From contig NZ_CANMPQ010000002.1 of assembly GCF_947499695.1 (NCBI RefSeq), positions 248,001 to 312,000 on the forward strand: DNA of 64,000 nt. The letters run 5' to 3'. The stretch's first letter is position 1; every line of letters starts with the position of its first letter. Positions 30,352 to 58,017 of this stretch are shown one piece after another. The position numbers and the translations under genes are program-made. Source of the stretch: an uncultured Allomuricauda sp. (GTDB lineage Bacteria; Bacteroidota; Bacteroidia; Flavobacteriales; Flavobacteriaceae). The notes below the pieces were generated by a model, which did no database searches, was not told the origin of the DNA, and was given only the letters and a program-made list of their open reading frames with translations.

Positions 30352-31104
30352 TTAATCCAACTCTCTTACCCAAATATTTCTGAAGCTCACCCTACTATTA
30401 TCATTGTGGTCTTGTAACATTAACGGAGCTTTTCCATGAGCCTGATATTTAGGCCAACCAATATATTCTATTGTGCCTTCAATTACGAAATGATCTTGAA
30501 TTAAAACACCGTTATGTAATAAAGTAACCGTGGCTGGTTTTACAATGTTTCCTCCTCTACTAAATTCTGGGGTGTGAAATATAATATCATATGTATTCCA
30601 TTCGCCAGTTGGAGATGAAGCCATGGCCAATGGCACACCTTGCTTGTATAAAGCTCCTACTTGCCCATTTACATAGGTGTCGTTATCATTATTGTCCAAT
30701 ACCTGTATTTCATACCGTTGTTGTATAAATACTCCACTATTAGCTCTGTTTTGTCCATCTCGAAGTACTTCTTTTGGTGACTTCCATTCTAGATGTAGCT
30801 GGATGCTCCCAAAATTTTGTTTGGTTTGGATGTTTCCAGTTCCATCGTTGACCGTAGTACTACCATCTTTATTCAAATGCCATTTTACGGCCGAGCTATC
30901 AGCGCTGCTTATCCAGTGGTCAAAATTTTTACCATCAAAAAGAACAATGGCGTCGCTCGGTGGAGATCCAAGTTGACCTGGAATCACACGAGGTGGTACG
31001 GGTTCATAAACTTCAGTGGCTTCTGGATTAGTTGGCTGTTTTTCTTGGCCCAATGCAACAACTGCAATAAAACCAAAAAAGAAAAGAAATAGATTTTTGG
31101 ACAT
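30352..31104 (-). CDS. DUF1080 (3-keto-disaccharide hydrolase-like) exported protein
   Basis: 250 residues with a signal peptide ending VVALGQ. The DUF1080 jelly-roll (about 50-250) contains VLFDGKNFDHW, NSGVFIQQRYEIQVLD, GALYKQGVPLAM, GEWNTYDIIFHTP and LMLQDHNDNSRVSFRNIWVR. Proteins of this family have been shown to split 3-keto glycosides, by hydrolysis or elimination next to the C3 keto group. It is the third gene of a minus-strand operon (TIM barrel, lipoprotein DUF1080, this gene) and would act in the periplasm on products of the GMC dehydrogenase. Enzyme type (lyase or hydrolase) is not decided by sequence. Confidence 0.85.
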   Translation of the reverse strand: MSKNLFLFFFGFIAVVALGQEKQPTNPEATEVYEPVPPRVIPGQLGSPPSDAIVLFDGKNFDHWISSADSSAVKWHLNKDGSTTVNDGTGNIQTKQNFGSIQLHLEWKSPKEVLRDGQNRANSGVFIQQRYEIQVLDNNDNDTYVNGQVGALYKQGVPLAMASSPTGEWNTYDIIFHTPEFSRGGNIVKPATVTLLHNGVLIQDHFVIEGTIEYIGWPKYQAHGKAPLMLQDHNDNSRVSFRNIWVRELD

Positions 31105-31854
31105 TTATAATTCTTTGATTTTAATATTTCGATAAGCCACAATATCGCTATGATCCTGTAAGCCGATTTTTCCTGTTTTGTAGGCTCCAAATCCTTCCCA
31201 ATCAGCAAACTTGGATTTGGATACCATGGTGTCCCATTCAGGTCCGTGAACCGGAAATTCAACAACTTTAATTCCATTCAATAGTACCTGGCCGTGGTTG
31301 GTTTCATGGTTTACAGTTAATTCAACGGTATTCCATTCGCCTGCCGGTTTAACTGCCTTTTCGGATGGAGCAATCATGTCATACAAGGCTCCTGCCTGAT
31401 GAGTAGTTCCGTTTTTAGCATCCGGATGTTCCTCGTCATCCAAAACCTGGATTTCAGGCCCGGTTAAATATGGTTGCCCATATTTTTCACCCTCATAAAC
31501 ACCCCAAAAAATTCCACTGTTCCCACCTTTCGAAATCTTCCATTCTAAAGACAAAACAAAGTTGGTGAACTCTTTATCGGTCACAATATTATAGCTTTCC
31601 CCTTCTTTCTTCTCTTTAGGTGGATAGAATACCATGGTACCATCTTCGAGTTTCCAAGGCTCATCAATTTCTCCTTCATTGTATAAATGCCACCCATTAA
31701 ATGAGGTTCCATCGAATAAGGTTACCCAACCTGATTCTTCACGTTCCGTTTGAGCTTCAGTTGCCTGTATGGTCTCTTCTTTTGCCTCTTCTTTTGGTTT
31801 GTCTTTACATGCAAAGGCAACCATTAAGGCCATAAATAAAGTCAGCTTTTTCAT
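31105..31854 (-). CDS. DUF1080 (3-keto-disaccharide hydrolase-like) lipoprotein
   Basis: 249 residues with a lipoprotein signal (MKKLTLFMALMVAFAC, Cys16) and an acidic linker. The DUF1080 fold has WVTLFDGTSFNGWHLY, NSGIFWGVYEG, GPEIQVLDDEEHPD, HQAGALYDMI, GEWNTVELTV and GKIGLQDHSDIVAYRNIKI. It is a divergent paralogue of the next gene in the operon; the pair may serve different linkages or consecutive steps. Its start overlaps the TIM-barrel stop by 4 bp and its stop abuts the next ATG, so the three genes are tightly coupled. Confidence 0.87.
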   Translation of the reverse strand: MKKLTLFMALMVAFACKDKPKEEAKEETIQATEAQTEREESGWVTLFDGTSFNGWHLYNEGEIDEPWKLEDGTMVFYPPKEKKEGESYNIVTDKEFTNFVLSLEWKISKGGNSGIFWGVYEGEKYGQPYLTGPEIQVLDDEEHPDAKNGTTHQAGALYDMIAPSEKAVKPAGEWNTVELTVNHETNHGQVLLNGIKVVEFPVHGPEWDTMVSKSKFADWEGFGAYKTGKIGLQDHSDIVAYRNIKIKEL

Positions 31855-32903
31855 AATCCCAATATTTTTTTAAGTTTTTCAGTATCTGTTTCTGCCCCCG
31901 CGAAATCATCAAAGGTTTTGGTGGTGGCTTCAATAATATGGTCTTGGATAAATTTGGCACCTTCCCTTGCTCCTTGTTCCGGACTTTTAATACAACACTC
32001 CCATTCCATAACTGCCCAAACATCACATCCATATTGTGTTAATTTTGAGAAAATCGTCTTGAAATCTATTTGTCCATCACCAAGAGAACGATAACGGCCT
32101 GCGCGATCTCCCCAATCGTTATAGCCTCCAAAAGCACCCTTTTTTCCAGTTGGATTGAATTCGGAATCTTTTACATGGAACGATTTTATAAATTCATGAT
32201 AGTGATCTATATATGCAATATAATCCAATTGTTGTAACACAAAATGGCTTGGGTCATATAATATATTCACTCTTTTGTGATTGCCAGTAGCTTCCAAAAA
32301 ACGCTCAAAGGTATCCCCATCATGCAAGTCTTCTCCAGGGTGAATTTCATAACAAACATCAACCCCTTCCTTATCAAAGTGGTTTAGAATGGGCATCCAT
32401 CTTTTGGCCAGTTCTTCAAATCCCATTTCTACCAATCCAGGTGGTCTTTGAGGCCAAGGGTGGGCAGTGTGCCAAAGTAATGATCCAGAAAATGTGGCAT
32501 GAGCTTTTATTCCCAATCTTCTGCTTGCCGTTGCGGCCTTTTTAACCGTTTCAATGGCCCACTCGGTTCTAGCTTTCGGATTATTCTTTACTGCATCTGG
32601 GGCAAAATTATCGAACATGATATCGTAAGCAGGATGTACTGCCACCAACTGCCCTTGCAAGTGTGTGGATAGTTCGGTGATTTCCAACCCATACGAATTG
32701 ATTTTTCCCTTTAATTCATCGCAATAATCCTGGCTTTCAGCTGCCTTGTCCAAATCTATTAGAAACGACTCCCAAGTTGGAATTTGGATTCCTTTGTACC
32801 CTAATCCAGATGCCCATTCGCACAGTCCATCCAAAGAATTGAAGGGAGGTTGGCCATCTACAAATTGAGCTAGAAATACTGCCGGTCCTTTAATTGTCTT
32901 CAT
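31851..32903 (-). CDS. Sugar phosphate isomerase/epimerase-like TIM barrel, cytoplasmic
   Basis: 350 residues with no signal peptide. The AP-endonuclease-2/xylose-isomerase-like barrel shows likely metal ligands in VCYEIHPGED (Glu), ILYDPSHF (Asp, His), IKSFHVKDSEF (His) and AVMEWEC (Glu). Relatives include IolE/IolI, hydroxypyruvate isomerase and ketose 3-epimerases. In this context, acting on a 3-keto sugar (epimerisation or isomerisation) is a reasonable guess. It is the first gene of a three-gene operon with two DUF1080 genes and is divergent from a GMC dehydrogenase. Confidence 0.88.
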   Translation of the reverse strand: MKTIKGPAVFLAQFVDGQPPFNSLDGLCEWASGLGYKGIQIPTWESFLIDLDKAAESQDYCDELKGKINSYGLEITELSTHLQGQLVAVHPAYDIMFDNFAPDAVKNNPKARTEWAIETVKKAATASRRLGIKAHATFSGSLLWHTAHPWPQRPPGLVEMGFEELAKRWMPILNHFDKEGVDVCYEIHPGEDLHDGDTFERFLEATGNHKRVNILYDPSHFVLQQLDYIAYIDHYHEFIKSFHVKDSEFNPTGKKGAFGGYNDWGDRAGRYRSLGDGQIDFKTIFSKLTQYGCDVWAVMEWECCIKSPEQGAREGAKFIQDHIIEATTKTFDDFAGAETDTEKLKKILGL

Positions 32904-32925
32904 TTAAATCAACTTTTTAGCTTGT

Positions 32926-32952
32926 ATAAATCCTTAAGGTTTTAGGATTTAT
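32926..32952. promoter_or_regulatory. Inverted repeat between TIM-barrel and GMC genes, possible operator
   Basis: ATAAATCCT (32926-32934) and AGGATTTAT (32944-32952) are perfect 9-bp arms 9 bp apart, in the 142-bp divergent gap. A second small repeat TTTCCT-CT-AGGAAA lies at 32988-33001. The right arm is part of TTAGGATTTA (32942-32951), which recurs at a matching place in the second module (40384-40393). Confidence 0.5.
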
Positions 32953-33045
32953 CACCTATATTTAAGAAAAATATTATGATGTTTTCAGTTTCCTCTAGGA
33001 AAGACATAAATATAGGGATTCGCCAACAATTAAAACAGCACAATA

Positions 33046-34749
33046 ATGAATGAAAATGTTGTTTATGATGCCATTGTAGTTGGAACGGGAATCACCGGGG
33101 GATGGGCAGCCAAGGAGCTTTGCGAAAATGGATTGAAAACATTGGTCTTGGAACGTGGCCCAATAGTAAAGCACGTTGAAGATTACAAAACCATGAACGA
33201 TGACACTTGGGACTATGCCTTTAAAGGTGAACTGTCTCGTTCGGAAAAGGAAAAATATCAGAAACAACTTCGTGTTGGTTGGGCCCCGCGTGAAGATGTC
33301 AAGCATTTTTTTGTGAATGATTTAGAGCATCCATACCAAGAAACCAAACGTTTTGATTGGATTCGCGGATATCAGGTAGGTGGTCGGTCCCTTACCTGGG
33401 GCAGGCAAAGTTATCGTTGGAGCGATATTGATTTTGAGGCTAACAAAAAGGAAGGCATTGCCATTGATTGGCCTGTCAGATATAAAGATATAGCTCCATG
33501 GTATGACAAAGTTGAGTCCTACATTGGGGTAAGTGGTGAAAAATTGGGATTGAAACAATTGCCTGATGGTCAATTCTTGCCTCCGATGGATTTGAACTGT
33601 GTGGAAAAAGATCTACAAAAATCTATGACCACTCATTTTGAGGATGGTCGCCTGTTGACGATCGGCAGAGCCGCACATATTACTAAAAATACTACTGATT
33701 TTACCGGGCGTGGCCCTTGTCAATATAGAAATAGATGCTGGAGAGGGTGTCCTTTTGGGGGTTATTTTAGCAGTAATTCTTCCACATTACCGGCAGCGGA
33801 ACGTACTGGAAATCTAACCCTTCGTCCAAACTCAGTTGTTTACGAAGTAGTCTATGATGATGTTCAAAAAAAGGCAACAGGAGTTAAAATCATTGATTCG
33901 GTAACCCATGAAAAGATTGAATTTAAATCCAAGGTAGTTTTCCTATGTGCTTCGGCAATGGCATCTGTAGGAATCTTATTGCAATCCAAATCAAAAACAT
34001 TTCCAAACGGTCTTGGCAACAATTATGATGAGGTGGGCCGCAATATTATGGACCACCACTATCAGCTAGGAGCATCTGCAAAAGTAGATGGGCATCTAGA
34101 TAAATATTACAAAGGCAGAAGACCTAATGGTTTTTACATCCCCCGTTTTGTAAATCTGAATGAAAAAACCAAACGAAAAAACTTTTTGCGAGGTTTTGGA
34201 TATCAAGGTGGAGCAGGAAGGTCAAATTGGTCAGAAACTGTTGCAGAAATGGGATATGGTGTTGCCCTTAAGGAAGCGGTGTTGAAACCGGGTGATTGGG
34301 AAATTGGAATGACAGGTTTTGGAGAAATGTTGCCTTATCACGACAATCGTGTTACCTTGAGTGCTGATAAGAAAGACCAATGGGGTCTTCCTCAATTGGA
34401 TTTTGATGTGGAATTCAAAGAAAATGAAATGAACATGCGCGAGGCCATCAAGGAAGAAGCTGTTGCCATATTAAAAGCAGCGGGTTATAGAGATGTGAAG
34501 GCCTACGATAGAGAAACCGGGCCAGGGTTGGGCATACATGAAATGGGAGGTGCCCGCATGGGACATGATTCCAAGACTTCTGTCTTAAACAAACATAATC
34601 AAGTGCATGGAGCACCCAACGTTTATGTGACTGATGGCGCTTTTATGACCTCCGCCAGCTGTGTTAACCCATCACTGACCTATATGGCTTTTACAGCAAG
34701 AGCTGCACAACACGCTGTTGAACAATTCAAACAACATAAATTTTCTTAA
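33046..34749 (+). CDS. GMC family FAD-dependent sugar dehydrogenase (copy 1)
   Basis: 567 residues. The FAD motif is YDAIVVGTGITGGWAAKELC with ERGPIVKH after it. A cysteine cluster CQYRNRCWRGCPFG (Cys-x5-Cys-x3-Cys) resembles the 3Fe-4S site of gluconate and glucose dehydrogenase large subunits. The C-terminus carries GIHEMGGARMG (catalytic His) and ASCVNPSLTYMAFTARAA (Asn). It probably oxidises a sugar or glycoside, perhaps at C3. It has no signal peptide and, unlike copy 2, no small-subunit gene beside it, so it may share that of 42212-42862. It is divergent from the TIM-barrel/DUF1080 operon and followed by an ASCH gene 9 bp later. Confidence 0.9.
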   Translation: MNENVVYDAIVVGTGITGGWAAKELCENGLKTLVLERGPIVKHVEDYKTMNDDTWDYAFKGELSRSEKEKYQKQLRVGWAPREDVKHFFVNDLEHPYQETKRFDWIRGYQVGGRSLTWGRQSYRWSDIDFEANKKEGIAIDWPVRYKDIAPWYDKVESYIGVSGEKLGLKQLPDGQFLPPMDLNCVEKDLQKSMTTHFEDGRLLTIGRAAHITKNTTDFTGRGPCQYRNRCWRGCPFGGYFSSNSSTLPAAERTGNLTLRPNSVVYEVVYDDVQKKATGVKIIDSVTHEKIEFKSKVVFLCASAMASVGILLQSKSKTFPNGLGNNYDEVGRNIMDHHYQLGASAKVDGHLDKYYKGRRPNGFYIPRFVNLNEKTKRKNFLRGFGYQGGAGRSNWSETVAEMGYGVALKEAVLKPGDWEIGMTGFGEMLPYHDNRVTLSADKKDQWGLPQLDFDVEFKENEMNMREAIKEEAVAILKAAGYRDVKAYDRETGPGLGIHEMGGARMGHDSKTSVLNKHNQVHGAPNVYVTDGAFMTSASCVNPSLTYMAFTARAAQHAVEQFKQHKFS

Positions 34750-34758
34750 ATACCTACT

Positions 34759-35223
34759 ATGGAAAACGCTTCTGCCCGCAATTTATGGGGCGATTTTTTG
34801 GACGCCCATCTAGAATTTGCTTCTGAAGATGCACCTAAAGTGATTCACTTTTGTGATAATCAAAAAGACGCAGACGATTGTGTCAATTTGGTGTGCAAAG
34901 ATGTAAAAAGAGCCACTTCGCATTCGCTTTTAGGAATGCAAAACCGCAATGAACCTATGCCCAAAATAGGAGATTTTGCTGTCGTGACTGATTGGTCTGG
35001 AAAAGCAAAGTGTGTTATACGGACTACATCGGTAAAACTGGTTCCTTATTTTGCCGTTAACTCTGATCATGCCAGAAAAGAGGGCGAAGGCGACAAAAGT
35101 TTAGAATACTGGAAAAAGACACATTGGGACTATTATACCCGAGAACTTTCTGAATTTAATCGTATCCCTAGGGAAAGTATGATTGTAGTTTTTGAAGAAT
35201 TCGAAAAGGTTTTTCAAAGATAA
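34759..35223 (+). CDS. ASCH domain protein
   Basis: 154 residues. The ASCH fold is indicated by VKRATSHSLLGMQNRNEPMP, KIGDFAVVTDWSGKAKCVIRTTSV and the EGEGDKSLEYWKKTHWDYY block seen in this family. ASCH proteins bind RNA or modified nucleosides; E. coli YqfB removes the acetyl group of N4-acetylcytidine. A link to sugar metabolism is not obvious. It lies 9 bp after GMC copy 1 and probably shares its transcript. The stop lies in a convergent hairpin region next to the Gfo/Idh gene. Confidence 0.8.
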   Translation: MENASARNLWGDFLDAHLEFASEDAPKVIHFCDNQKDADDCVNLVCKDVKRATSHSLLGMQNRNEPMPKIGDFAVVTDWSGKAKCVIRTTSVKLVPYFAVNSDHARKEGEGDKSLEYWKKTHWDYYTRELSEFNRIPRESMIVVFEEFEKVFQR

Positions 35224-35245
35224 TGGCCGCACGTAGGCGACCATT
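35222..35245. terminator. Imperfect hairpin between convergent ASCH and Gfo/Idh genes
   Basis: AATGGCCGC (35222-35230) and GCGACCATT (35237-35245) pair with one mismatch around a 6-base loop, overlapping the ASCH stop. The T content after it is modest, so this is a weak terminator call. Confidence 0.4.
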
Positions 35246-35267
35246 ATTCTCTATTTTAGAATATAGA

Positions 35268-36404
35268 TTAATCCAAATCAATCCAAACATTCCCTTGTTT
35301 GTGTGAAGCGACTGTACTTTCAATAAAGTTCATTCCCCTAACACCATCACGCATGGTTGGGAATTCCCCATCATTGTATTCTTCGCCGCGGATGGCTCTA
35401 GCAGCCCCTAAATAGATATTAGCCATCGAATCAAAAATGCCTTCGGGATGTCCAGCAGGTATTTTTGAAGCTTTTAGGGAAAGTTCAGAATTATAGGCAT
35501 GTCCTGGTTTATAAACTTGTAAGGGTTCCGTATCACTCATCTTATACAGAAAATTGGGTTTTTCCTGCTCCCATCTGAAAGCTCCTTTTTCTCCATAAAT
35601 GGCAATAGCCAGTCCATTTTCTTCCCCAGTAGCCACTTGGCTCGCTCTAACCACACCTTTCACATGTTTGTCCATACGAATCAAGACCGTACCATCCACA
35701 TCCATTTGATTATCATCGTAGAGGTAGTTAAAATCGCACAGAACGGATTTAATCTGTAATCCCGTGGTGTATTCAATTAAATTGGAGGCATGCACCCCAA
35801 TATCACCAATACATGAACTTATTCCAGCTTTTTTTGGATCTAATCGCCAAACCGTGGAACGCTTTTCTTTATCATGAATTACGGTATTGATCCAGCCTTG
35901 ATAATATCTCGCATCCACTTTATGGATTCTTCCCAAAGCACCTGCTTTAATCATTTCCCTCATTTGTCGTACCATAGGATAACCTGTATACGTATGGGTA
36001 AGTGCGAATACCTTTCCTGATTTTTGGTGTACCTCTTCCAATATTTTCGCCTCCTCATGGTTCATGGTCATCGGTTTTTCACAAATCACATGAAATCCAT
36101 TCTCCAACAATTTCTTGGCCATTGGAAAGTGCAAGAAATTAGGTGTAAGTACTGAACAAACCTGGATGCGTTGATCTTCCGGAAGCTTCATTTCCTCCGA
36201 TATCAAAGTGTCAAAATCTTTGTATATCCTATTTGTGGGCACATCGATTTCTTTGGCAAAACCCATGTTCTGTTCAAAGTCTGGATTAAATACCGCTCCG
36301 ACTATTTCATAATTGTCATTTATAAAAGAGGCCACTCTGTGCAGCACCCCAATAAGTGAATCTCCTCCACCTCCAATAATACCAAGTCTAATCTTTTTTG
36401 GCAT
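35268..36404 (-). CDS. Gfo/Idh/MocA family oxidoreductase, cytoplasmic
   Basis: 378 residues with no signal peptide. The N-terminal Rossmann fold LGIIGGGGDSLIG binds NAD(P), and VICEKPMTMN is the family EKP motif. SSCIGDIGVHASNL carries the catalytic Asp/His-type residues of the substrate domain. Relatives interconvert hydroxyl and keto groups on sugars, including 3-keto sugars, so reducing an imported 3-keto sugar fits here (inferred). It is the fifth and last gene of a minus-strand operon (TIM barrel, DinB, two MFS genes, this gene), 13 bp after the MFS gene. Confidence 0.9.
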   Translation of the reverse strand: MPKKIRLGIIGGGGDSLIGVLHRVASFINDNYEIVGAVFNPDFEQNMGFAKEIDVPTNRIYKDFDTLISEEMKLPEDQRIQVCSVLTPNFLHFPMAKKLLENGFHVICEKPMTMNHEEAKILEEVHQKSGKVFALTHTYTGYPMVRQMREMIKAGALGRIHKVDARYYQGWINTVIHDKEKRSTVWRLDPKKAGISSCIGDIGVHASNLIEYTTGLQIKSVLCDFNYLYDDNQMDVDGTVLIRMDKHVKGVVRASQVATGEENGLAIAIYGEKGAFRWEQEKPNFLYKMSDTEPLQVYKPGHAYNSELSLKASKIPAGHPEGIFDSMANIYLGAARAIRGEEYNDGEFPTMRDGVRGMNFIESTVASHKQGNVWIDLD

Positions 36405-36417
36405 GTGTTTTCTTTTT

Positions 36418-37593
36418 TTAAGTTGCTTCAGTATTTGATTTTCGTTTTTTCATATATAAGTACAATCCTAGGAACGCCGCAATTAATATTGCAGGCAGGA
36501 TTGACATCGTTCGCAGTGCTTCCATAGGACTGGCATCATCCATCAATTTTCCCATAAAAGGTAATACCACTGATACGGATAACATTCCAGCACCTCCCAT
36601 TATCGAAAGCCCGAGGGCTCCTGTTTGGGGTAAGTATTCCGCAACAAATCCAAGCATTGTCGGCCAGAAAAAGGTGACTCCCACCGCAAAGACAGCCGCT
36701 GCAGCAAATGTCATCGTCCCACTTGTTATAGTCAACAACCAAAGACCAATAAAGGTAAATATTGCAGAAAACAATAACATTCCTGACGGTTGAAGCTTAT
36801 GTATTACTTTACCAGCAAAGCCTCTACCTATAGCCATAATCCCATTGATAAACACCAAGACCAACAACGGAACAGTACCGGATTCTTTTAACAATGATTC
36901 GATTCGCTGTGTTGTTCCCAGTTCTGATGCCGCAGTCAGGAGCATACAAATCACCATAAAAATAAATAGTGGTTTACCCAGACTGGCAAACATTTTTTTA
37001 TTGCTAACTCCCAATTGAACACGTTCTGTAACCGGGAACTTTTGTCCAAAAAATAAGAATGCATATATCACCAGGGGAATAAATAATATTCCGACCATTA
37101 TTTGCCATCCCAAGCCCATGACATCCATAATCAGCCATCCTAGAACGCCTCCTATGGCTATGCCTCCAGGAAACCAAACATGAAAACGGTTGAGCATTTT
37201 TGTTTTATTCTCGCTATACATAGATGCGATCATAGGGTTGAGCGCGGCTTCTACCATTCCGTTTCCAATACCAACAAACAACGTAGCTAAAAACAATGAT
37301 GTTTGATCTTTGGCCAAAATTGTCCATGTAATACCAATAGCATGGGTAATAAATGCAATCCAAGTAATCTTTTTTATTCCAAGGGAATCAACCAATGGAC
37401 CTCCAATAATCATTGCTAAGGTAAAACCCCAAAATGCAGGTGTAAACGCCCATCCAATTTGCTCTAATGTCAATCCAACTCCTTCAGGACCAAAAACGGT
37501 CTCCAATCTTGCCCGTATCGCAAAGGTCATTGAAGTGACCAACAAAGCAACACAGGATGCTACAAACAATCGATTCTTGTTTACATTCTCCAT
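36418..37593 (-). CDS. MFS sugar transporter
   Basis: 391 residues with 12 predicted helices. It begins LFVASCVALLVTSMTFAIRA, and the conserved loop region GGPLVDSLGIKK stands at the place of the usual GxLaDrxGrk motif between helices 2 and 3. HVWFPGGIAIGGVLGWL is like the FucP/sugar-importing branch. The substrate is unknown. Co-transcription with a Gfo/Idh dehydrogenase and another MFS gene suggests import of a keto sugar or its reduced form. It lies 13 bp before the Gfo/Idh gene and 22 bp after the nucleoside-symporter-like gene. Confidence 0.85.
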   Translation of the reverse strand: MENVNKNRLFVASCVALLVTSMTFAIRARLETVFGPEGVGLTLEQIGWAFTPAFWGFTLAMIIGGPLVDSLGIKKITWIAFITHAIGITWTILAKDQTSLFLATLFVGIGNGMVEAALNPMIASMYSENKTKMLNRFHVWFPGGIAIGGVLGWLIMDVMGLGWQIMVGILFIPLVIYAFLFFGQKFPVTERVQLGVSNKKMFASLGKPLFIFMVICMLLTAASELGTTQRIESLLKESGTVPLLVLVFINGIMAIGRGFAGKVIHKLQPSGMLLFSAIFTFIGLWLLTITSGTMTFAAAAVFAVGVTFFWPTMLGFVAEYLPQTGALGLSIMGGAGMLSVSVVLPFMGKLMDDASPMEALRTMSILPAILIAAFLGLYLYMKKRKSNTEAT

Positions 37594-37615
37594 GTTATAT
37601 TATTTTGGTTGTTAT

Positions 37616-38872
37616 TTAGGATTTGTATTCTATTTTTTCGTTTTTGAAAAGGAGTGCAAAAAGAATGGCAACACCTAATGCAAAAATGGCTGGGAAACTC
37701 CAAATATTTTCCCATTCATGAATGTTTTCTGAAGTGAGATACGTATCGGTTATCTTACCTGCAATCCAAAAACCTATCAGCATACCCACACCGTAGGTGG
37801 CTAAGGTAATTAATCCTTGAGCAGCGCTTTTGTACTTGTCCCCCGCCTTGGTATCTGTATAAATTTGACCGGAAACAAAGAAAAAATCATAACATATGCC
37901 ATGAAGTGCGATACCTATAATCAGCATAAAGGCCAATTCTCCCTCATTTCCATATGCAAAAAGCAGGTACCTCACCAGCCAAGCAAACATGCCCACTAAA
38001 ATTGTCCTTTTAAATCCAAATTTCTTAAAGAAAAATGGCAGTAATAACATAAACATAACTTCAGAAATCTGACCTATCGTCATCATTCCTGCAGGGCCGA
38101 TTTCCGCACCGAAAACTCCAATTGAAGCTCCAATTTCACCCAAAAATTGTCCGGCGTGTTGGTAGTAAAATGCCAAAGGAATACATATCAGCACCGATGC
38201 TAAAAAGAAAACCAAAAAATTTCTGTCTTTCAATAGCTTTAAAGCATCTAGCCCTATAATATCCGAGAGAGATACTTTTTCTGCTTTACCAACCCTTGGT
38301 GGTGTTTTAGGCAATGTGAAACTGAACAGACCAAGCACAGCAGAAGCGATAGCGGTCATGACAAATGTATTTCTTAATGCACCATTTGCGATGTTCTCCG
38401 GGGAGTCCCATTTAAAAACGGTGCTTATAAAAATTAGTCCCGCTACAATCCAACCAATAGTCCCAAAAACCCTAACAAAGGCAAATTCTTTGGATGGGTC
38501 CTTCATTTGATTGAACGAAACTGAATTGACCAAGGCCAATGTAGGCATGTAAGCAATCATATATCCAAACACATACGGAACGAATACTGAAATATCGTCT
38601 GCATTGGCCATCTGGTACATTATAAATGCTCCGACCAGATGTAAAATTCCCAAAACCTTTTCAGCATTGAAATAGCGGTCTGCAATCAATCCGATTATAA
38701 AGGGTGCAATTATTGCACCCCAGGATTGACTTGAGTACGCCAGGGCAATATCTGCGCCCGATGCTCCTAAGGTGTTAGGCAAATAAATACCTAATGTCAC
38801 GAACCAACCTCCCCATATGAAGAACTCTAAAAACATCATAAACGACAGCTGGAACTTTACTTTTAAACTCAT
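37616..38872 (-). CDS. MFS transporter, nucleoside:H+ symporter (NupG)-like
   Basis: 418 residues with 12 helices. The N-terminus FQLSFMMFLEFFIWGGWFVT and GLIADRYFNAEKVLGILHL are typical of the Nuc_H_symport branch. In Bacteroidota, members of this branch sit in sugar clusters and probably carry sugars rather than nucleosides. This substrate view is inferred. A second MFS gene follows directly; the two may import different products of periplasmic glycoside oxidation. Confidence 0.87.
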   Translation of the reverse strand: MSLKVKFQLSFMMFLEFFIWGGWFVTLGIYLPNTLGASGADIALAYSSQSWGAIIAPFIIGLIADRYFNAEKVLGILHLVGAFIMYQMANADDISVFVPYVFGYMIAYMPTLALVNSVSFNQMKDPSKEFAFVRVFGTIGWIVAGLIFISTVFKWDSPENIANGALRNTFVMTAIASAVLGLFSFTLPKTPPRVGKAEKVSLSDIIGLDALKLLKDRNFLVFFLASVLICIPLAFYYQHAGQFLGEIGASIGVFGAEIGPAGMMTIGQISEVMFMLLLPFFFKKFGFKRTILVGMFAWLVRYLLFAYGNEGELAFMLIIGIALHGICYDFFFVSGQIYTDTKAGDKYKSAAQGLITLATYGVGMLIGFWIAGKITDTYLTSENIHEWENIWSFPAIFALGVAILFALLFKNEKIEYKS

Positions 38873-38881
38873 GAACGGGGG

Positions 38882-39325
38882 TTATCTTTTATAAAAAATG
38901 TAGTCCAAGGGTTCAGGTTCAATACCGTTAGATCTGTAATCCATAAGTATTTGGCCTCTGTGGTGCGTTGAATGGTTGATAATGTGAAAAAGTATATCCT
39001 TAAGCTCATTTGCAAACACTCTTCCCTCGCTGTTTTCGTAATCTATTCTTCGGCCGAAATCATCGGCATTTGTAATTAGCTCAAAAGTGGTCCGTTGGTT
39101 TTCATAATGAATATCTCCCCAACTTTCAACGGCATGCTCTTGCCAAACACCATATTCTGGGGGTTTTCCGGCGATACGATTGTTCCAAATATGATGGGCA
39201 TTCAATATATGACTAAAAAGCTTGATGCACTTTTCTGGAACTTTTTCCATAGTCGTGCATTGCTCAATAAGCTTCTTATTACAATAAAAATTGTAGTCAA
39301 ATAGTTGGTTAAACAATACCTTCAT
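38882..39325 (-). CDS. DinB family protein
   Basis: 147 residues forming a four-helix DinB/YfiT bundle. His residues are placed as in the metal site: LNAHHIWNNRI after helix 2 and IINHSTHHRGQILMDY in the last helix. Family members are thiol transferases or metal hydrolases, and many have no known activity. It lies 9 bp upstream of the NupG-like gene and 26 bp downstream of the TIM-barrel gene, inside the sugar operon. Its role there is unclear. Confidence 0.88.
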   Translation of the reverse strand: MKVLFNQLFDYNFYCNKKLIEQCTTMEKVPEKCIKLFSHILNAHHIWNNRIAGKPPEYGVWQEHAVESWGDIHYENQRTTFELITNADDFGRRIDYENSEGRVFANELKDILFHIINHSTHHRGQILMDYRSNGIEPEPLDYIFYKR

Positions 39326-39351
39326 ATATAATGAGCTTCAGCAATCGAACT

Positions 39352-40350
39352 TTAAACTTGTTTGCCTGCTTTAATCAATAAATCTCTTGTCGCAATGATA
39401 CCTTCTTCCTCGCTCAAAACACTTCCTTCATATTCAACACCAACAAATCCGGTATATCCTGCTTCTTTTACAATCTTCAACATCTTAACATAATCAATCT
39501 TGGTCTCGTTACCATCAGCATCAAAATCGTAGGACTTTGCGCTTACCGCTTTTGCGAATGGCATCAATTCCTCTACCCCTTTGTACTTGTCATATTCCTC
39601 TATGCATTTTGAAGCGTAATAAGACCCATCTTCTCTTTTAACACAGAAGTTTCCAAAATCTGGTAGTGTCCCGCAATTATCCATATTCACGCTCTTCATT
39701 ACCTCGGCCAACCAAGCTCCATTTGATGAAGGTCCCCCATGGTTCTCTACAATAATGTTTACATTTTTGTCCTTGGCATAGGTCGACAGCTGCGTTAATC
39801 CATCTGTTGAAGCTTCAATCCATTCATCCTGTTCCATACTTCCTTGAAGATTAACACGTATAGAATGACAGCCCATAGCGGCGGCGGCATCTACCCATTT
39901 AAAGTGGTTTTCTACCGCAGCTTTTCTTTCTGCCTCATCGGCTGCAGCTAGAGCCCCCTGTCCATCGATCATAAGCAATACGTTTTTCATACCATGCTTT
40001 TCAGCTTCTGCATTACTTTTATCTACGAAAGCTTTCATAGCTTCTGGCGAATAATTACCCTTCTCAAGTTCAGGATGGTATAATTGACTTACGTATTCAA
40101 GACCTGTAAAACCCCACGCTTTTGCTTTTTCCGCAAAAGTGTATGGATCAGTCCCTCCTTCACGAATCATTTTATTGATAGACCACTGCGCGAGCGATAG
40201 TTCAAAAAATGGGGAAGTCCTTTCTTCAGTCACAACAGCAACTTCTTCACTCTCCGGTTCTTTTTTGGTTTGCTTACAAGCATATCCACCCAAAGCAGTC
40301 AAGGCTAAGCCTGCTTTTGCAGAATTGACAACAAAATTTCTTCTTTTCAT
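39352..40350 (-). CDS. Exported sugar phosphate isomerase/epimerase-like TIM barrel
   Basis: 332 residues. The N-terminus MKRRNFVVNSAKAGLALTAL has a twin-arginine motif (RRNFV) and is followed by GGYACKQ, so it may be a Tat-exported lipoprotein. The barrel has KNVNIIVENHGG (Glu), CGTLPDFGNFC (Asp), AKSYDFD and FVGVEYEG (Glu) as likely metal ligands, like hydroxypyruvate isomerase or 3-epimerases. It is the periplasmic counterpart of the cytoplasmic barrel at 31851 and starts a five-gene operon. It is divergent from GMC copy 2 with a 143-bp gap. Confidence 0.85.
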   Translation of the reverse strand: MKRRNFVVNSAKAGLALTALGGYACKQTKKEPESEEVAVVTEERTSPFFELSLAQWSINKMIREGGTDPYTFAEKAKAWGFTGLEYVSQLYHPELEKGNYSPEAMKAFVDKSNAEAEKHGMKNVLLMIDGQGALAAADEAERKAAVENHFKWVDAAAAMGCHSIRVNLQGSMEQDEWIEASTDGLTQLSTYAKDKNVNIIVENHGGPSSNGAWLAEVMKSVNMDNCGTLPDFGNFCVKREDGSYYASKCIEEYDKYKGVEELMPFAKAVSAKSYDFDADGNETKIDYVKMLKIVKEAGYTGFVGVEYEGSVLSEEEGIIATRDLLIKAGKQV

Positions 40351-40383
40351 ACCTATTGGTTTGTGATACTGGCAATTAAAAGA

Positions 40384-40393
40384 TTAGGATTTA
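40384..40393. promoter_or_regulatory. TTAGGATTTA site shared with the other divergent module
   Basis: The same 10 bases occur at 32942-32951 in the matching gap of module 1, at nearly the same distance from the TIM-barrel start (34 versus 39 bp). Here the second arm of the inverted repeat is missing. It is a possible half-site of a shared regulator; chance is not excluded. Confidence 0.35.
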
Positions 40394-40463
40394 CTACAAC
40401 GTTATAGTGTTAATTTCCCAATAAACAGGGGGTTTAAATGTAGAAAATTAATTTAATATTTAA

Positions 40464-40471
40464 TACTTTTA
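40464..40471 (+). promoter_or_regulatory. -7-like element of the GMC copy 2 operon
   Basis: TACTTTTA (TAnnTTTG with the last base changed) lies 22 nt before the ATG. The same variant is seen before the ClC gene. Confidence 0.35.
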
Positions 40472-40493
40472 GAAAATAAACAATCAATAATAA

Positions 40494-42212
40494 ATGAGCA
40501 TATTCTATTACAATGAAGAGCAAGAATCCTATGATGCAATTGTTGTTGGGACAGGCATTAGTGGTGGATGGGCTGCAAAGGAACTTTGCGAAAATGGCTT
40601 AAAGACCTTGGTACTGGAGCGTGGACCAATGGTCAAGCACAGAGAAGACTATCCTACTGCCAATATGGATCCATGGGATTTTCCAAACAATGGACAACCT
40701 ACAACAGAAGACATTAAAAAACAGGAAAAGCAAAATCGCACAGGGTATACAACCAGGGCAGGTTCAAAGCATTGGTTCGTAAACGATTTGGAACATCCAT
40801 ATAATGAAACTAAACGTTTCGATTGGATGCGAGGATACCATGTTGGGGGTCGTTCCATCATGTGGGGTCGACATAGCTATCGCTGGAGCGATATCGATTT
40901 TGAAGCTAATAAGAAGGATGGCGTTGCGGTAGATTGGCCCGTTCGTTACAAGGATATTGCCCCATGGTATGATAAAGTGGAATCGTACATAGGCGTTGCT
41001 GGGGAAATGTTGGGCCTACCCCAACTACCTGATGGAAAATTTGAGCCTATGATGGAGCTCAATTGTGTGGAACAGCATGTACGCGAAAAGGTTTCGGAGC
41101 ATTTTGATGGCAGGGTAATAACTGCCGGTAGGGTTGCTCACATAAATAGTGATAAAAAGTTTGAAGGTGATGGAAGAGTACGTTGCCAATATAGAAACCG
41201 ATGTATTCGTGGGTGTCCTTTTGGAGCTTATTTTAGTAGTGTTTCTTCAACTTTGCCAGCTGCCGAGCGCACAGGAAACATGACGCTAAGACCAGATGCC
41301 ATTGTTCATGAGGTAATGTATGACCCTGATACCAAAAAAGCGACTGGTGTTAAAGTTATTGATCGCGTTACCAAGGAAGAACATGTATTCAAGGCAAAAG
41401 TGATTTTCCTATGTGCTTCAGCAATAGCTTCAACATCTATATTGATGCAATCAAAATCTGACCGTTTCCCAGATGGACTCGGCAATGATTCGGATCAATT
41501 AGGAAGAAATATCATGGACCACCACTTACGCGTGGGCGCTTCAGGAAAATTTGATGGTTTTGAAGATAAGTACTATAAAGGAAGAAAGCCCAACGGGATT
41601 TATGTCCCTAGGTTCAGAAACCTTGGCGGCAGCTCCAACACCGATAAGTTCTTAAGAGGATATGGCTATCAAGGAGGTGCCCAAAGAGGCAATTGGGAAG
41701 ATGTTATTGCAGAAGTTTCCCATGGAAAAGACCTTAAAGATGCCATTTTGAAGCCTGGAGGTTGGACTTTTGGAATGGGTGGATTTGGAGAAATTCTTCC
41801 CTATGAGGATAACCGTATGACCTTGGATTATGATAAGGTTGATCAATGGGGACTTCCAACGGTTACATTCGATGCGGAGCTCAAGGAAAATGAATTGAAA
41901 ATGCGTGAGGATATGAAAAATCAAGCAGTGGAAATGCTTGAAAAAGCAGGTTTGCGTGATGTAGAATCATTTGATGATCCTGGTGCAATAGGTTTAGGAA
42001 TCCATGAAATGGGTACTGCTCGAATGGGAAGAGACCCAAGAACATCTGTTCTTAATGAATATAACCAAGTACATGCCTGTAAAAATGTGTATGTTACCGA
42101 TGGTTCTTTTATGACTTCGGCCTCATGTGTCAACCCTTCGTTGACTTATATGGCTTTCACAGCACGGGCAGCCAATCATGCAGCCCAAGAACTTAAAAAA
42201 GGAAATATATAA
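40494..42212 (+). CDS. GMC family FAD-dependent sugar dehydrogenase (copy 2)
   Basis: 572 residues, closely similar to copy 1 along the whole length. The FAD motif is YDAIVVGTGISGGWAAKELC, the cysteine cluster is CQYRNRCIRGCPFGAYFS, and the C-terminal active site is GIHEMGTARMG with ASCVNPSLTYMAFTARAA. Its stop (TAA) shares a base with the ATG of a gluconate 2-dehydrogenase subunit 3-type gene. By analogy with that enzyme, the large subunit, which lacks a signal, would be carried through Tat by the small subunit. It probably oxidises sugars or glycosides in the periplasm. No cytochrome subunit gene is nearby. Confidence 0.92.
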   Translation: MSIFYYNEEQESYDAIVVGTGISGGWAAKELCENGLKTLVLERGPMVKHREDYPTANMDPWDFPNNGQPTTEDIKKQEKQNRTGYTTRAGSKHWFVNDLEHPYNETKRFDWMRGYHVGGRSIMWGRHSYRWSDIDFEANKKDGVAVDWPVRYKDIAPWYDKVESYIGVAGEMLGLPQLPDGKFEPMMELNCVEQHVREKVSEHFDGRVITAGRVAHINSDKKFEGDGRVRCQYRNRCIRGCPFGAYFSSVSSTLPAAERTGNMTLRPDAIVHEVMYDPDTKKATGVKVIDRVTKEEHVFKAKVIFLCASAIASTSILMQSKSDRFPDGLGNDSDQLGRNIMDHHLRVGASGKFDGFEDKYYKGRKPNGIYVPRFRNLGGSSNTDKFLRGYGYQGGAQRGNWEDVIAEVSHGKDLKDAILKPGGWTFGMGGFGEILPYEDNRMTLDYDKVDQWGLPTVTFDAELKENELKMREDMKNQAVEMLEKAGLRDVESFDDPGAIGLGIHEMGTARMGRDPRTSVLNEYNQVHACKNVYVTDGSFMTSASCVNPSLTYMAFTARAANHAAQELKKGNI

Positions 42213-42862
42213 TGGAAAGAAGAGCAGCATTAAAAAATATGGGAATGGTTTTCGGTTATGCCGCGGCCACTCCGGCATTATTGAGTATTGTTCAAAGCTG
42301 TCAAAGTAAAAAGGTGCTCGATTGGACTCCAACCTTTTTTAGTAAAGAGCAAGGGAATATCGTGCATTCATTAATTGACATTTTGTTACCAAAAACGGAT
42401 ACACCTTCAGCGTCTGAAGTAAATGTGCATTTGTTTATCGACCAATTTGCCAATGAAGTACTGCCAGAAGAACACCAAGGATTAATGAAGTTGACGATGG
42501 AATCGTTCACCAACAAGGTATTGGCCGGTTCTGGAAAAGAGAGCCTGGCAGACCTCGATGATGAAGATTTAGAACCTGTATTTGCTTCTTATTTGAAAAA
42601 AAGAACCCCAGAGCAGGAAGAGCAGCATGGTGAAATCATGGACGCTTATATTGAAGCCATGACAAATGGTGAAGCCGCTGAGCTAGACGAAGAGGTTGCC
42701 TGTTATACCTTTGCAGATAATCTTAGAAACACTACTATCTGGGCCTATAAAACTTCTGAATACGTTGGTGAAGAAGTCTTGGCTTATTTACCTATACCAG
42801 GTGAGTATATTGGTTGTGGTGATCTTAATGAGTTGACCCAAGGAAAAGCTTGGTCCTTATAG
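42212..42862 (+). CDS. Gluconate 2-dehydrogenase subunit 3 family protein (Tat signal)
   Basis: 216 residues. The N-terminus MERRAALKNMGMVFGYAAAT has a twin-arginine pattern and ends SIVQSCQS, which could be a lipobox (Cys31). The body matches the small subunit (gamma) family: FFSKEQGNIVHSLIDILLPK and TPSASEVNVHLFIDQFANEV. The subunit is needed for export and maturation of the FAD-containing large subunit. Its ATG overlaps the GMC stop, giving equal expression. It may also serve GMC copy 1. Confidence 0.9.
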   Translation: MERRAALKNMGMVFGYAAATPALLSIVQSCQSKKVLDWTPTFFSKEQGNIVHSLIDILLPKTDTPSASEVNVHLFIDQFANEVLPEEHQGLMKLTMESFTNKVLAGSGKESLADLDDEDLEPVFASYLKKRTPEQEEQHGEIMDAYIEAMTNGEAAELDEEVACYTFADNLRNTTIWAYKTSEYVGEEVLAYLPIPGEYIGCGDLNELTQGKAWSL

Positions 42863-57956: not shown

Positions 57957-58017
57957 CAACGCCCCTTGACTATTGTTGTTTTTTGTATCTTCAATCCCAT
58001 CAAAAAAATCAAACCAA

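Follow-up and report, generated by a model that had tools for sequence, protein, structure and literature searches.

Within the window, by which we mean the whole 64-kb stretch of DNA that was analysed, ORF calls and Pfam give 12 non-overlapping genes in the interval 30352-42862. An earlier sequence-only reading of this DNA had counted fourteen, a number that we revise, and had left unnamed the pair of genes encoding the ASCH and DinB proteins. A GH130-family gene (27132-28223) lies about 2 kb beyond the interval. The genes, and one pair of sequence boxes, are as follows:

30352-31104, minus strand: DUF1080 protein a (3keto-disac_hyd; PF06439, E 7e-37), secreted, with a Sec-type leader read from the sequence; putative 3-keto-glycoside lyase or hydrolase
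31105-31854, minus strand: DUF1080 protein b (PF06439, E 1e-50), putative lipoprotein; putative 3-keto-glycoside lyase or hydrolase
31851-32903, minus strand: HYD, homologue of 2-hydroxy-3-keto-glucal hydratase (8ro4 match), a cytoplasmic AP_endonuc_2 TIM barrel with no leader
32955-33016: outward-facing pair of TAAATATAGG boxes (32955-32964, minus; 33007-33016, plus) in the divergent gap between HYD and GMC1; candidate promoter or operator elements
33046-34749, plus strand: GMC1, FAD/Fe-S dehydrogenase large subunit (PF05199/PF00732; fructose dehydrogenase 7w2j, E 5e-40), by the tree a lineage-specific paralogue
34759-35223, plus strand: ASCH-domain protein (PF04266, E 7e-21), by synteny inserted between HYD and GFO
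35268-36404, minus strand: GFO, Gfo/Idh/MocA oxidoreductase (PF22725/PF01408; 3v5n, E 6e-87), putative 3-keto-hexose reductase
36418-37593, minus strand: MFS1, MFS carrier (PF07690), a variable member
37616-38872, minus strand: NHS, Nuc_H_symport/LacY-like MFS carrier (PF03825, E 9e-115)
38882-39325, minus strand: DinB-family protein (PF05163, E 5e-13), a lineage-specific member
39352-40350, minus strand: TIM2, exported DgpC-like TIM-barrel lipoprotein (AP_endonuc_2 with a leader)
40494-42212, plus strand: GMC2, FAD/Fe-S dehydrogenase large subunit (PF05199/PF00732; 7w2j, E 2e-40), by tree and synteny the copy common to single-GMC relatives
42212-42862, plus strand: SUB3, gluconate 2-dehydrogenase subunit 3 family (PF13618, E 8e-23) with a Tat-type leader, the sole small subunit here

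Most of the family assignments in the first reading held up. Pfam confirms the Gfo/Idh/MocA reductase, the two MFS carriers and both GMC dehydrogenases, each of which has the Fe-S-like Cys cluster as C-x5-C-x3-C; the Tat small subunit is a Gluconate_2-dh3 protein with an RR leader; the two exported DUF1080 proteins match PF06439, their leaders having been read by eye; and the 12 genes' Pfam results include neither SusC/SusD nor a glycosidase, as had been said. The two DUF1080 proteins are 27% identical. The single PDB match of protein a (4qhz, E 3e-69) is an uncharacterised protein, while the top match of protein b is 4jqt (E 1e-43), with 8rr2 and 8tda at E 4e-38. HYD aligns with the solved 2-hydroxy-3-keto-glucal hydratase 8RO4 over residues 1-350, its full length (E 1.2e-161), and no second copy was found in the genome. 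The PDB match of GFO, 3v5n, carries the name "oxidoreductase" alone.

The two TIM barrels described earlier are both AP_endonuc_2 proteins, one of them leaderless. Tat export of the other, TIM2, fits its own sequence; however, an early RR pair occurs in 33 of 72 orthologues (start codons uncurated) but Cys25 is kept in all 43 aligned rows, so the conserved trait is that of an exported lipoprotein. In sequence and fold TIM2 is akin to eliminases of the DgpC/CGD type, and its closest named PDB sequence relatives are the DgpB/C and CGD C-glycoside deglycosidases (7bvr, 7exz, 9m3b, 8qvc), which, unlike TIM2, are not exported lipoproteins. It retains their E-x-H, Asp, Lys and Glu positions (E202, H204, D231, E308), whereas the metal-ligand His position is, in the sequence alignment, a serine (Ser270, invariant in 43/43 rows); by this alignment TIM2 does not have the complete set of metal site and catalytic His. 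None of the 12 genes' Pfam results suggests a DgpC/CGD-type beta subunit.

The PDB matches of GMC1 and GMC2 are the large subunits of fructose and FAD-glucose dehydrogenases. Compared with those complexes (7w2j, 6a2u), the large-subunit family is the same and the Cys triplet is aligned, the cysteines of GMC1 with those of fructose dehydrogenase, whereas the small subunit here is PF13618 and the cluster has no cytochrome gene. The two GMC proteins share 66.5% identity and are separated by 14 fixed alignment columns, and the Cys triplet, H-x-MG and NP[ST]LT are present in every sequence retained, window included (82/82 for GMC1, 63/63 for GMC2). The cluster has one small subunit for two intact, diverged enzymes; RR is present in 60 of 62 SUB3 orthologues. 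LacB of the LacABC system is a cytochrome, and compared with Caulobacter LacABC the present cluster has a second GMC gene and lacks a cytochrome gene. By eye, CxxCH was not seen in the 12 translations. None of the 80 relatives' loci yielded a small cytochrome c gene, which 15 of the 18 GMC-bearing HYD loci of other genomes in the phylum do have. The best convincing match to one such cytochrome in this genome is a domain within a 1116-aa protein, and the genome encodes a ThuA-GSDH-PKD-cytochrome c-CBM6 protein.

The 80 relatives' loci were gathered by similarity to GMC1, and many are cut or missing members. The genes that are present retain the same order and orientation throughout, which argues that the cluster is not a chance assembly. 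The gene set might have been scattered in related genomes, a possibility that the first reading had named as counting against it; instead, all genes except MFS1 are recovered together as ORFs in 44 of the 80 loci, gene order is maintained in Flagellimonas, Zobellia, Arenibacter and Maribacter, and the cluster keeps its position beside yicC, often with nrdA. MFS1 was seen in 25 of the 80 loci; across all 80, 69 ORFs match NHS. In the synteny comparison of relatives, DinB was not found in the 12 loci that lack ASCH. More widely, 57 of the 296 genomes sampled from the phylum carry HYD, and similar annotated gene sets lie on plasmids of Pseudoalteromonas, Xanthomonas and Hymenobacter (a Croceicoccus plasmid has a similar set with no annotated DUF1080 gene), so this kind of cluster is not rare. 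A phylum search returned 40 HYD loci in 38 genomes, 30 with a neighbouring GFO; among the 18 that bear a GMC gene, GFO is a neighbour in all and DUF1080 is present in 17.

The first reading had described a two-module locus, and one could suppose two separate modules acting on different substrates, the HYD side with GMC1 and the TIM2/GFO side with GMC2. There are two divergent gaps, each carrying its own conserved sequence elements: at the HYD/GMC1 gap the exact TAAATATAGG box pair is unique in the genome, and of 78 such gaps 73 show both 8-base cores in order and 36 show the pair as the longer 10-base pattern. The 14 fixed columns between GMC1 and GMC2 point the same way, as does Pricia antarctica, whose locus keeps the left half through GFO and in which TIM2, GMC2 and SUB3 were not found. 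Yet single-GMC relatives hold HYD, GFO, MFS, TIM2, GMC and SUB3 as one divergent unit, in which GFO adjoins HYD; GMC1 comes out of the tree as a paralogue limited to a single flavobacterial lineage (group support 100/100); three loci that are missing GMC1 still keep HYD, ASCH, GFO, TIM2, GMC2 and SUB3; and the window has a single HYD, GFO and SUB3 to its two GMC genes. We therefore set the two-module description aside and regard independent modules as very improbable.

The reading that we favour, at a probability of roughly 0.77, is that the locus encodes a non-hydrolytic pathway for small glycosides (oxidise, beta-eliminate, import, hydrate, reduce), built on one ancestral unit with insertions of GMC1, ASCH and DinB. 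That ancestor would have been a single divergent unit, DUF1080(s)-HYD-GFO-MFS-TIM2 facing GMC2-SUB3, into which GMC1 and ASCH would have entered between HYD and GFO, and DinB (variably MFS1) in the right-hand run. From family and context, GMC1 and GMC2, exported with the Tat small subunit, would oxidise the glycoside at C3; the exported DUF1080 proteins, perhaps with TIM2, would cleave it by beta-elimination, releasing 2-hydroxy-3-keto-glucal and an aglycone or second sugar; an MFS carrier would take up the product; HYD, by strong homology, would hydrate it to 3-keto-hexose; and GFO would reduce this to hexose. An oxidative route through 3-keto-glycosides, in which the oxidising and cleaving steps take place outside the cell and the reduction within it, had already been proposed, and families and context continue to suggest it; the order then given lacked the hydration step and is amended.

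Such a pathway is likely, judged from sequence, of the type known from Agrobacterium and related to LacABC-DUF1080 clusters. In the available text of PMC10628242, an Agrobacterium operon with a GMC enzyme, a Gfo oxidoreductase and two "sugar isomerases" acts by C3 oxidation and then elimination, and its authors term the evidence for hydration and reduction to glucose preliminary. With this A. tumefaciens GlycDH-AtOGE-AtHYD-Gfo operon (PMC10628242) the locus shares a GMC enzyme with a Tat-type partner (at the level of family), a hydratase homologue (8ro4) and a Gfo/Idh protein and, putatively, the oxidise/eliminate/hydrate/reduce scheme. Where that operon has AtOGE, this cluster has its two DUF1080 proteins along with the DgpC-like TIM2 as candidate eliminases; AtOGE (8BVK) was not among the PDB matches returned in sequence searches. 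Here there are also two GMC genes and additional ASCH, DinB and MFS genes. The Caulobacter LacABC system with DUF1080 (CCNA_01705) is alike in its GMC-type dehydrogenase, two sugar epimerases, reductase and transporter, and by family DUF1080 lies near a GMC large subunit in both; the available text of PMC9007349 gives no hydratase role for it, and reports clusters like it from Indibacter, Algoriphagus and Halomonas, as well as a LacA-like gene from Pedobacter. The Bacteroides thetaiotaomicron system resembles this one in having a DUF1080 enzyme (BT2157, PMC9007349) and in its 3-keto chemistry, which acts on disaccharides; its oxidising enzyme, the periplasmic glycoside 3-dehydrogenase BT2158 (PMC11300592), is of the Gfo/Idh type, whereas GMC proteins would carry out this step here. 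Another part of the window (57973-59442) holds a BT2158-like gene.

Price et al. propose that DUF1080 members are hydrolases (PMC9007349), and the Pfam name of the family is 3-keto-disaccharide hydrolase. DUF1080 proteins might accordingly hydrolyse the substrate outside the cell to sugar and 3-keto-sugar, leaving HYD to another task such as 3-keto-sugar epimerisation. We consider this route unlikely: a hydratase would be superfluous after hydrolysis, yet 17 of the 18 GMC-bearing HYD loci, and most synteny-compared loci, have a homologue close to DUF1080, and HYD matches 8RO4 at full length (E 1e-161). Since the 31851-32903 TIM barrel is a hydratase homologue, we take beta-elimination to be a likelier mode of cleavage than hydrolysis; support for elimination by DUF1080 comes mainly from this linked hydratase.

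Several observations count against the pathway we favour. With DUF1080 outside and HYD in the cytoplasm, the enone would have to be carried across the membrane, a putative function for these MFS carriers; 22 of the 40 HYD loci have no GMC gene nearby, so HYD serves other settings too; and the 12-gene cluster does not encode an electron acceptor. GMC1 probably lets the pathway act on more substrates, and it may use the single SUB3 together with GMC2, although it could be specialised for a different alcohol, and tandem GMC genes each with their own SUB3 in two relatives (L170, L175) speak against easy sharing. A speculative extension, which we rate as improbable, is a branched periplasmic system in this flavobacterial lineage: the two diverged GMC enzymes would compete for one SUB3, electrons would pass to a shared or fused acceptor (the ThuA-GSDH-PKD-cytochrome c-CBM6 protein, for example) in place of the small cytochrome, TIM2, with its Ser at a metal-ligand position, would be an exported eliminase or epimerase of a new class for linkages or sugar epimers beyond the DUF1080 lyases, and DinB would guard the cell against the reactive enone. 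DinB belongs to the bacillithiol-transferase superfamily, and the genome encodes BshC, a bacillithiol synthesis enzyme.

The substrate could also be an endogenous glycoside that is salvaged or remodelled, or the locus could have a cell-wall or compatible-solute role, instead of catabolising food glycosides. HYD is conserved at a housekeeping level (median identity 92% over 77 orthologues, against 85% for gmk (68), 76% for yicC (71) and 90% for nrdA (33)), and the cluster's steady place by yicC and often nrdA, with neither a regulator nor SusCD among the 12 genes, would suit such a role; but exported enzymes and MFS carriers suit uptake, and relatives elsewhere adjoin SusC/SusD, TonB receptors or glycosidases, so we hold an endogenous role to be improbable.

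We conclude that the gene set represents a known pathway in a lineage-specific form, its substrates and activities putative. What is unusual is the absence of a small cytochrome c gene, a single small subunit for two diverged GMC enzymes, and an exported DgpC-like TIM2 with an invariant Ser. Marine Flavobacteriaceae have an important part in breaking down algal material, and their use of glycosides is commonly read off glycosidases and SusCD systems. That Flagellimonas, Zobellia, Arenibacter and Maribacter keep the same gene order, and that HYD is conserved at a housekeeping level, is suggestive of a substantial route that is independent of glycosidases and easily missed in annotation. This variant lends itself to asking whether two GMC enzymes share one SUB3, which electron acceptor serves where there is no small cytochrome, and what role the exported TIM2 has.

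The cluster at 30352-42862 of the window holds 12 genes by ORF calls and Pfam, two fewer than the fourteen counted in the sequence-only reading, which had also left two of the members, ASCH and DinB, unnamed. Its left-hand neighbors are yicC-gmk-nadD, its right-hand ones nrdA-nrdB, and its genes are arranged in four runs:

Leftward run, - strand: DUFa and DUFb (exported DUF1080 proteins), HYD (cytoplasmic TIM-barrel hydratase homologue)
Rightward run, + strand: GMC1 (FAD/Fe-S dehydrogenase large subunit), ASCH
Second leftward run, - strand: GFO (Gfo/Idh/MocA protein), MFS1 and NHS (MFS carriers), DinB, TIM2 (exported TIM-barrel lipoprotein)
Second rightward run, + strand: GMC2 (FAD/Fe-S dehydrogenase large subunit), SUB3 (small subunit)
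32955-33016, HYD/GMC1 gap: outward-facing pair of TAAATATAGG boxes

Within a run, the gene coordinates leave 0-26 bases between neighbors or make them overlap slightly, so the 12 genes are likely read as four transcripts that originate in two divergent gaps. None of the 12 proteins scores above an NCBIfam cut-off, and DUFa, DUFb, SUB3, ASCH and DinB have no listed match at all; the functional assignments for the whole cluster rest on homology and synteny. The closest named relatives found are Flagellimonas strains, with GMC1 identities of 92 and 91%, which places the window in a member of the Flavobacteriaceae belonging to that group. About 2 kb to the left of the cluster, a gene of the GH130 family (27132-28223, + strand, mannooligosaccharide phosphorylase-like) adjoins a DUF6503 gene.

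One paper (PMC10628242) describes a pathway in Agrobacterium in which a GMC flavoenzyme, accompanied by a TAT protein, oxidizes a glucoside at C3, AtOGE takes off the aglycone by beta-elimination, AtHYD hydrates 2-hydroxy-3-keto-glucal, and a Gfo oxidoreductase converts 3-keto-glucose to glucose, the authors calling their evidence for each of the last two steps "preliminary". PMC12101588 credits hydration and reduction to Kastner et al. 2024. A dehydrogenase, a hydratase homologue and a Gfo/Idh protein are common to that pathway and the window, and HYD matches 8RO4, deposited as a 2-hydroxy-3-keto-glucal hydratase, over residues 1 to 350 (E 1.2e-161). The likely cleaving enzymes in the window would be the DUF1080 proteins; DUFb matches 8RR2 and 8TDA at E 4e-38, its best match being the uncharacterized 4JQT. 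For Caulobacter, PMC9007349 reports LacABC together with a DUF1080 protein, two epimerases, a reductase and a transporter, with related clusters in other bacteria, and there Price et al. propose hydrolysis; the linked glucal hydratase speaks, indirectly, for elimination over hydrolysis. The resulting enone, we assume, would cross the membrane through NHS or MFS1. Two genomes each have a pair of HYD genes (L117, L137, L138 and L139), and the stretches fetched around these gave no match to GMC, DUF1080 or GFO, so HYD works in other settings too.

The two dehydrogenases share 66.5% identity, and both match the large subunits of fructose dehydrogenase and FAD-glucose dehydrogenase. All three cysteines of the C-x5-C-x3-C motif of GMC1 align with cysteines of fructose dehydrogenase, and the same motif occurs in GMC2. 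Among the 80 relatives fetched by GMC1 similarity (L007-L086), sequences of 550-620 residues with at least 70% identity were retained and the others dropped; in this filtered set, window included, the cysteine triplet, H-x-MG and NP[ST]LT are kept in 82 of 82 GMC1 and 63 of 63 GMC2 proteins. Without the filter, all three motifs are found in 83/86 rows labelled GMC1 and 78/86 labelled GMC2, the remaining rows, which include partial ORFs or distant relatives, being without one or more. The filtered groups differ at 14 columns that are fixed in each (two of these are gaps in one group) and, with the motifs retained, both enzymes look functional and diverged. The genome's third GMC protein (L001:6380-8814, C5), which is 31% identical to each of the two, has its own subunit-3 gene.

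For its two GMC proteins the cluster encodes one small subunit, SUB3 (PF13618), whose orthologues have an RR leader in 60 of 62 cases. SUB3 has no sequence match in the PDB, and its model (pLDDT 79.5) gave no usable PDB fold match, a result that excludes nothing. Elsewhere, tandem GMC genes each have their own SUB3 (L170, L175), or two GMC genes go with a single one (L135), and from these arrangements it is possible that one SUB3 is shared by the two enzymes.

The cluster had been proposed as a two-module locus, a form that we reject on the synteny of relatives with a single GMC gene and on a GMC tree. A GMC match at E <= 1e-100 was present in 141 of the 249 Flavobacteriaceae genomes searched, and 15 loci were hand-picked from these (L163-L177). 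In ten of the 15 (L165, L166, L168-L173, L175, L177), HYD, the adjoining GFO, an MFS gene and TIM2 follow one another in one direction, with GMC and SUB3 in the opposite one; a DUF1080 gene lies beside HYD in nine of the ten, tandem GMC-SUB3 pairs occur in two, and one additional gene separates TIM2 from GMC in L168 and L175. Three further loci, L164 (of the window's own genus), L174 and L176, carry ASCH between HYD and GFO without GMC1, and each of these genomes contains a single GMC match. L163 has TIM2-GMC-SUB3 without HYD, and L167 is without both HYD and TIM2. The tree was built from 70 rows, representing 21 of the 80 relatives, picked by hand, and distant loci. Its 24 GMC1 rows form one group (support 100/100), which joins the flavobacterial GMC2 rows at 97/100, the GMC2 rows' own group being weaker (94/92); four rows from distant genomes, called GMC1 by best BLAST hit, are placed elsewhere. 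The simplest history, other orders of events being possible, starts from an ancestral single unit: the ancestor of the lineage gained a GMC duplicate between HYD and GFO, ASCH and DinB joined the cluster, and GMC1 was later lost in some members. ASCH and DinB travel with this lineage's cluster. Among the matches listed, GMC1-level identity (at least 73%) was seen in 21 of the 249 genomes, counting that of the window; for 19 of them the rows listed include a second GMC on the same contig, at a distance of 5.6-11.8 kb.

Across the 80 relatives, whose selection by GMC1 similarity makes them no measure of how common the form is, the genes that could be found are ordered and oriented alike. The 11 genes other than MFS1, which is present in 25/80, were all recovered as ORFs in 44; the other 36 miss one to eight genes, in several cases because the contig or locus ends or because the ORF caller lost a gene that tblastn detects. 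No NHS gene was found in L057, L059, L070 or L082 and no DUFa gene in the Zobellia loci, and the locus of Pricia antarctica (L066) ends after GFO despite sufficient length. One relative (L033) has an additional DUF1080 gene, two (L040, L048) have two GMC1 genes each, and three (L047, L051, L055) are without the yicC-gmk-nadD flank and carry GMC1 without ASCH or DinB. HYD is strikingly constant, with a median identity of 92% (77 orthologues), next to 85% for gmk (68), 76% for yicC (71) and 90% for nrdA (33).

In the phylum at large, HYD occurs in 57 of 296 genomes (E <= 1e-100). By annotation, similar gene sets lie on plasmids of Pseudoalteromonas donghaensis, Xanthomonas sacchari and Hymenobacter volaticus, and on a Croceicoccus marinus plasmid without an annotated DUF1080 gene; in a direct comparison the Pseudoalteromonas HYD and GFO are 70% and 42% identical to those of the window. 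Catenovulum has a partial version of the set.

The phylum yielded 40 HYD loci (38 genomes). A GMC gene is close by in 18, of which 15 also encode a small protein bearing a c-type haem motif, next to HYD in 14; such a protein occurs in 4 of the 22 loci without GMC. CxxCH was found on no ORF of fewer than 250 residues in any of the 80 relatives or in L119, and on no ORF in any of the 15 further flavobacterial loci. Tying the absence to GMC1 does not hold up, as 12 of those 15 loci carry no inserted genes; the absence is therefore a trait of the whole TIM2-bearing flavobacterial form, older than or independent of GMC1. Loci that possess the cytochrome are found within the same family, Flavobacteriaceae (L126, L127, L129). 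A search of the window's genome for a dedicated cytochrome elsewhere, made with one query sequence that a diverged cytochrome could escape, gave one convincing match only, a domain of a larger protein:

L162:5705-9055 (C1 of the same genome): ThuA-GSDH-PKD-cytochrome c-CBM6 protein, 1116 aa, match to the cytochrome query

This protein is a candidate, as yet unproven, for the electron acceptor, and from its domains it may possibly combine an oxidative sugar enzyme and an electron carrier in one chain.

The model of TIM2 (pLDDT 89.2) is nearest to the uncharacterized 4OVX (52-56% identity), and its list of structural Z scores does not discriminate among TIM barrels, so a sequence profile was used instead. 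In that profile, C-glycoside deglycosidases (DgpC, CGD, DfgA, CarB-C; E 6e-13 to 1e-5) make up most of the next-ranking matches; the isomerase Art22 (5e-6) ranks within this range, and tagatose epimerases and IolI come lower. Such deglycosidases eliminate aglycones from 3-keto-glucosides, according to PMC10628242. TIM2 keeps their E202-x-H204, D231, K272 and E308, whereas an invariant Ser270 replaces their His, which, following the description of AtOGE/CGE in that same paper and our reading of the alignment, would be a metal ligand. TIM2 is thus kin to the eliminases, and it could act as a lyase, an epimerase or a hydratase outside the membrane. Tat export, suggested earlier for TIM2, is not a conserved feature, with RR in 33 of 72 orthologues. 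Orthology to the exported TIM barrels of other Bacteroidota clusters lacks support, one (L126_296) being 22% identical over 267 columns and three others aligning over short stretches only, and a Catenovulum TIM barrel near a GMC gene also proved on comparison not to be a TIM2 orthologue.

DinB-family proteins include the bacillithiol transferases, and BshC is encoded in the window's genome; since the enone is electrophilic, it is conceivable that DinB protects against this intermediate.

The TAAATATAGG pair in the HYD/GMC1 gap is the genome's only such exact pair at 30-60 bases. Its 10-base form is present in 36 of 78 HYD/GMC1 gaps, window included, and its 8-base cores stand in the same order in 73 of the 78, 39-44 bases apart in 63 of these and 34 apart in nine; in 200 single-base shuffles both cores appeared in at most 3/78. 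This demonstrates conservation, not function, since the sequences are related. Single boxes with one mismatch are at about chance level in the window (6 against 6.6 expected). L174 and L176, in which ASCH takes the divergent position, keep the core pair, which was not found in L164, L047, L051 and L055. On a plain reading each divergent transcript would have one box, as promoter or operator. The TIM2/GMC2 gap (40351-40493) has a conserved AT-rich stretch; the pattern TAAATGTA-N21-TAC[AT]TTTA within it occurs in 31 of 66 such gaps, the window's right arm being one base short of a perfect inverted repeat.

Other candidate genes for 3-keto chemistry occur in the genome. A Gfo/Idh protein with an RR leader (57973-59442, + strand) resembles NCBIfam BT_2158_fam (glycoside 3-dehydrogenase; E 5e-144), its 480.5 bits falling short of the curated cut-off of 750. 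It shares 49% identity with an exported Gfo/Idh protein within a Flavobacteriaceae 3-keto cluster (L126) and, lying 15 kb away from the cluster described here, may provide a second route of oxidation. Seven PF06439/DUF1080 matches lie outside the cluster (L002-L006, on C1 and C2), making nine genome-wide, and some of them adjoin genes whose starts, read by eye, look like Gfo/Idh proteins with a Tat leader.

Our literature search found no paper on this flavobacterial cluster, though one may exist. We judge the cluster to be a lineage-specific variant of a known pathway, of interest mainly for how well flavobacteria conserve it, for its lack of the small cytochrome, for its second GMC gene and for TIM2.
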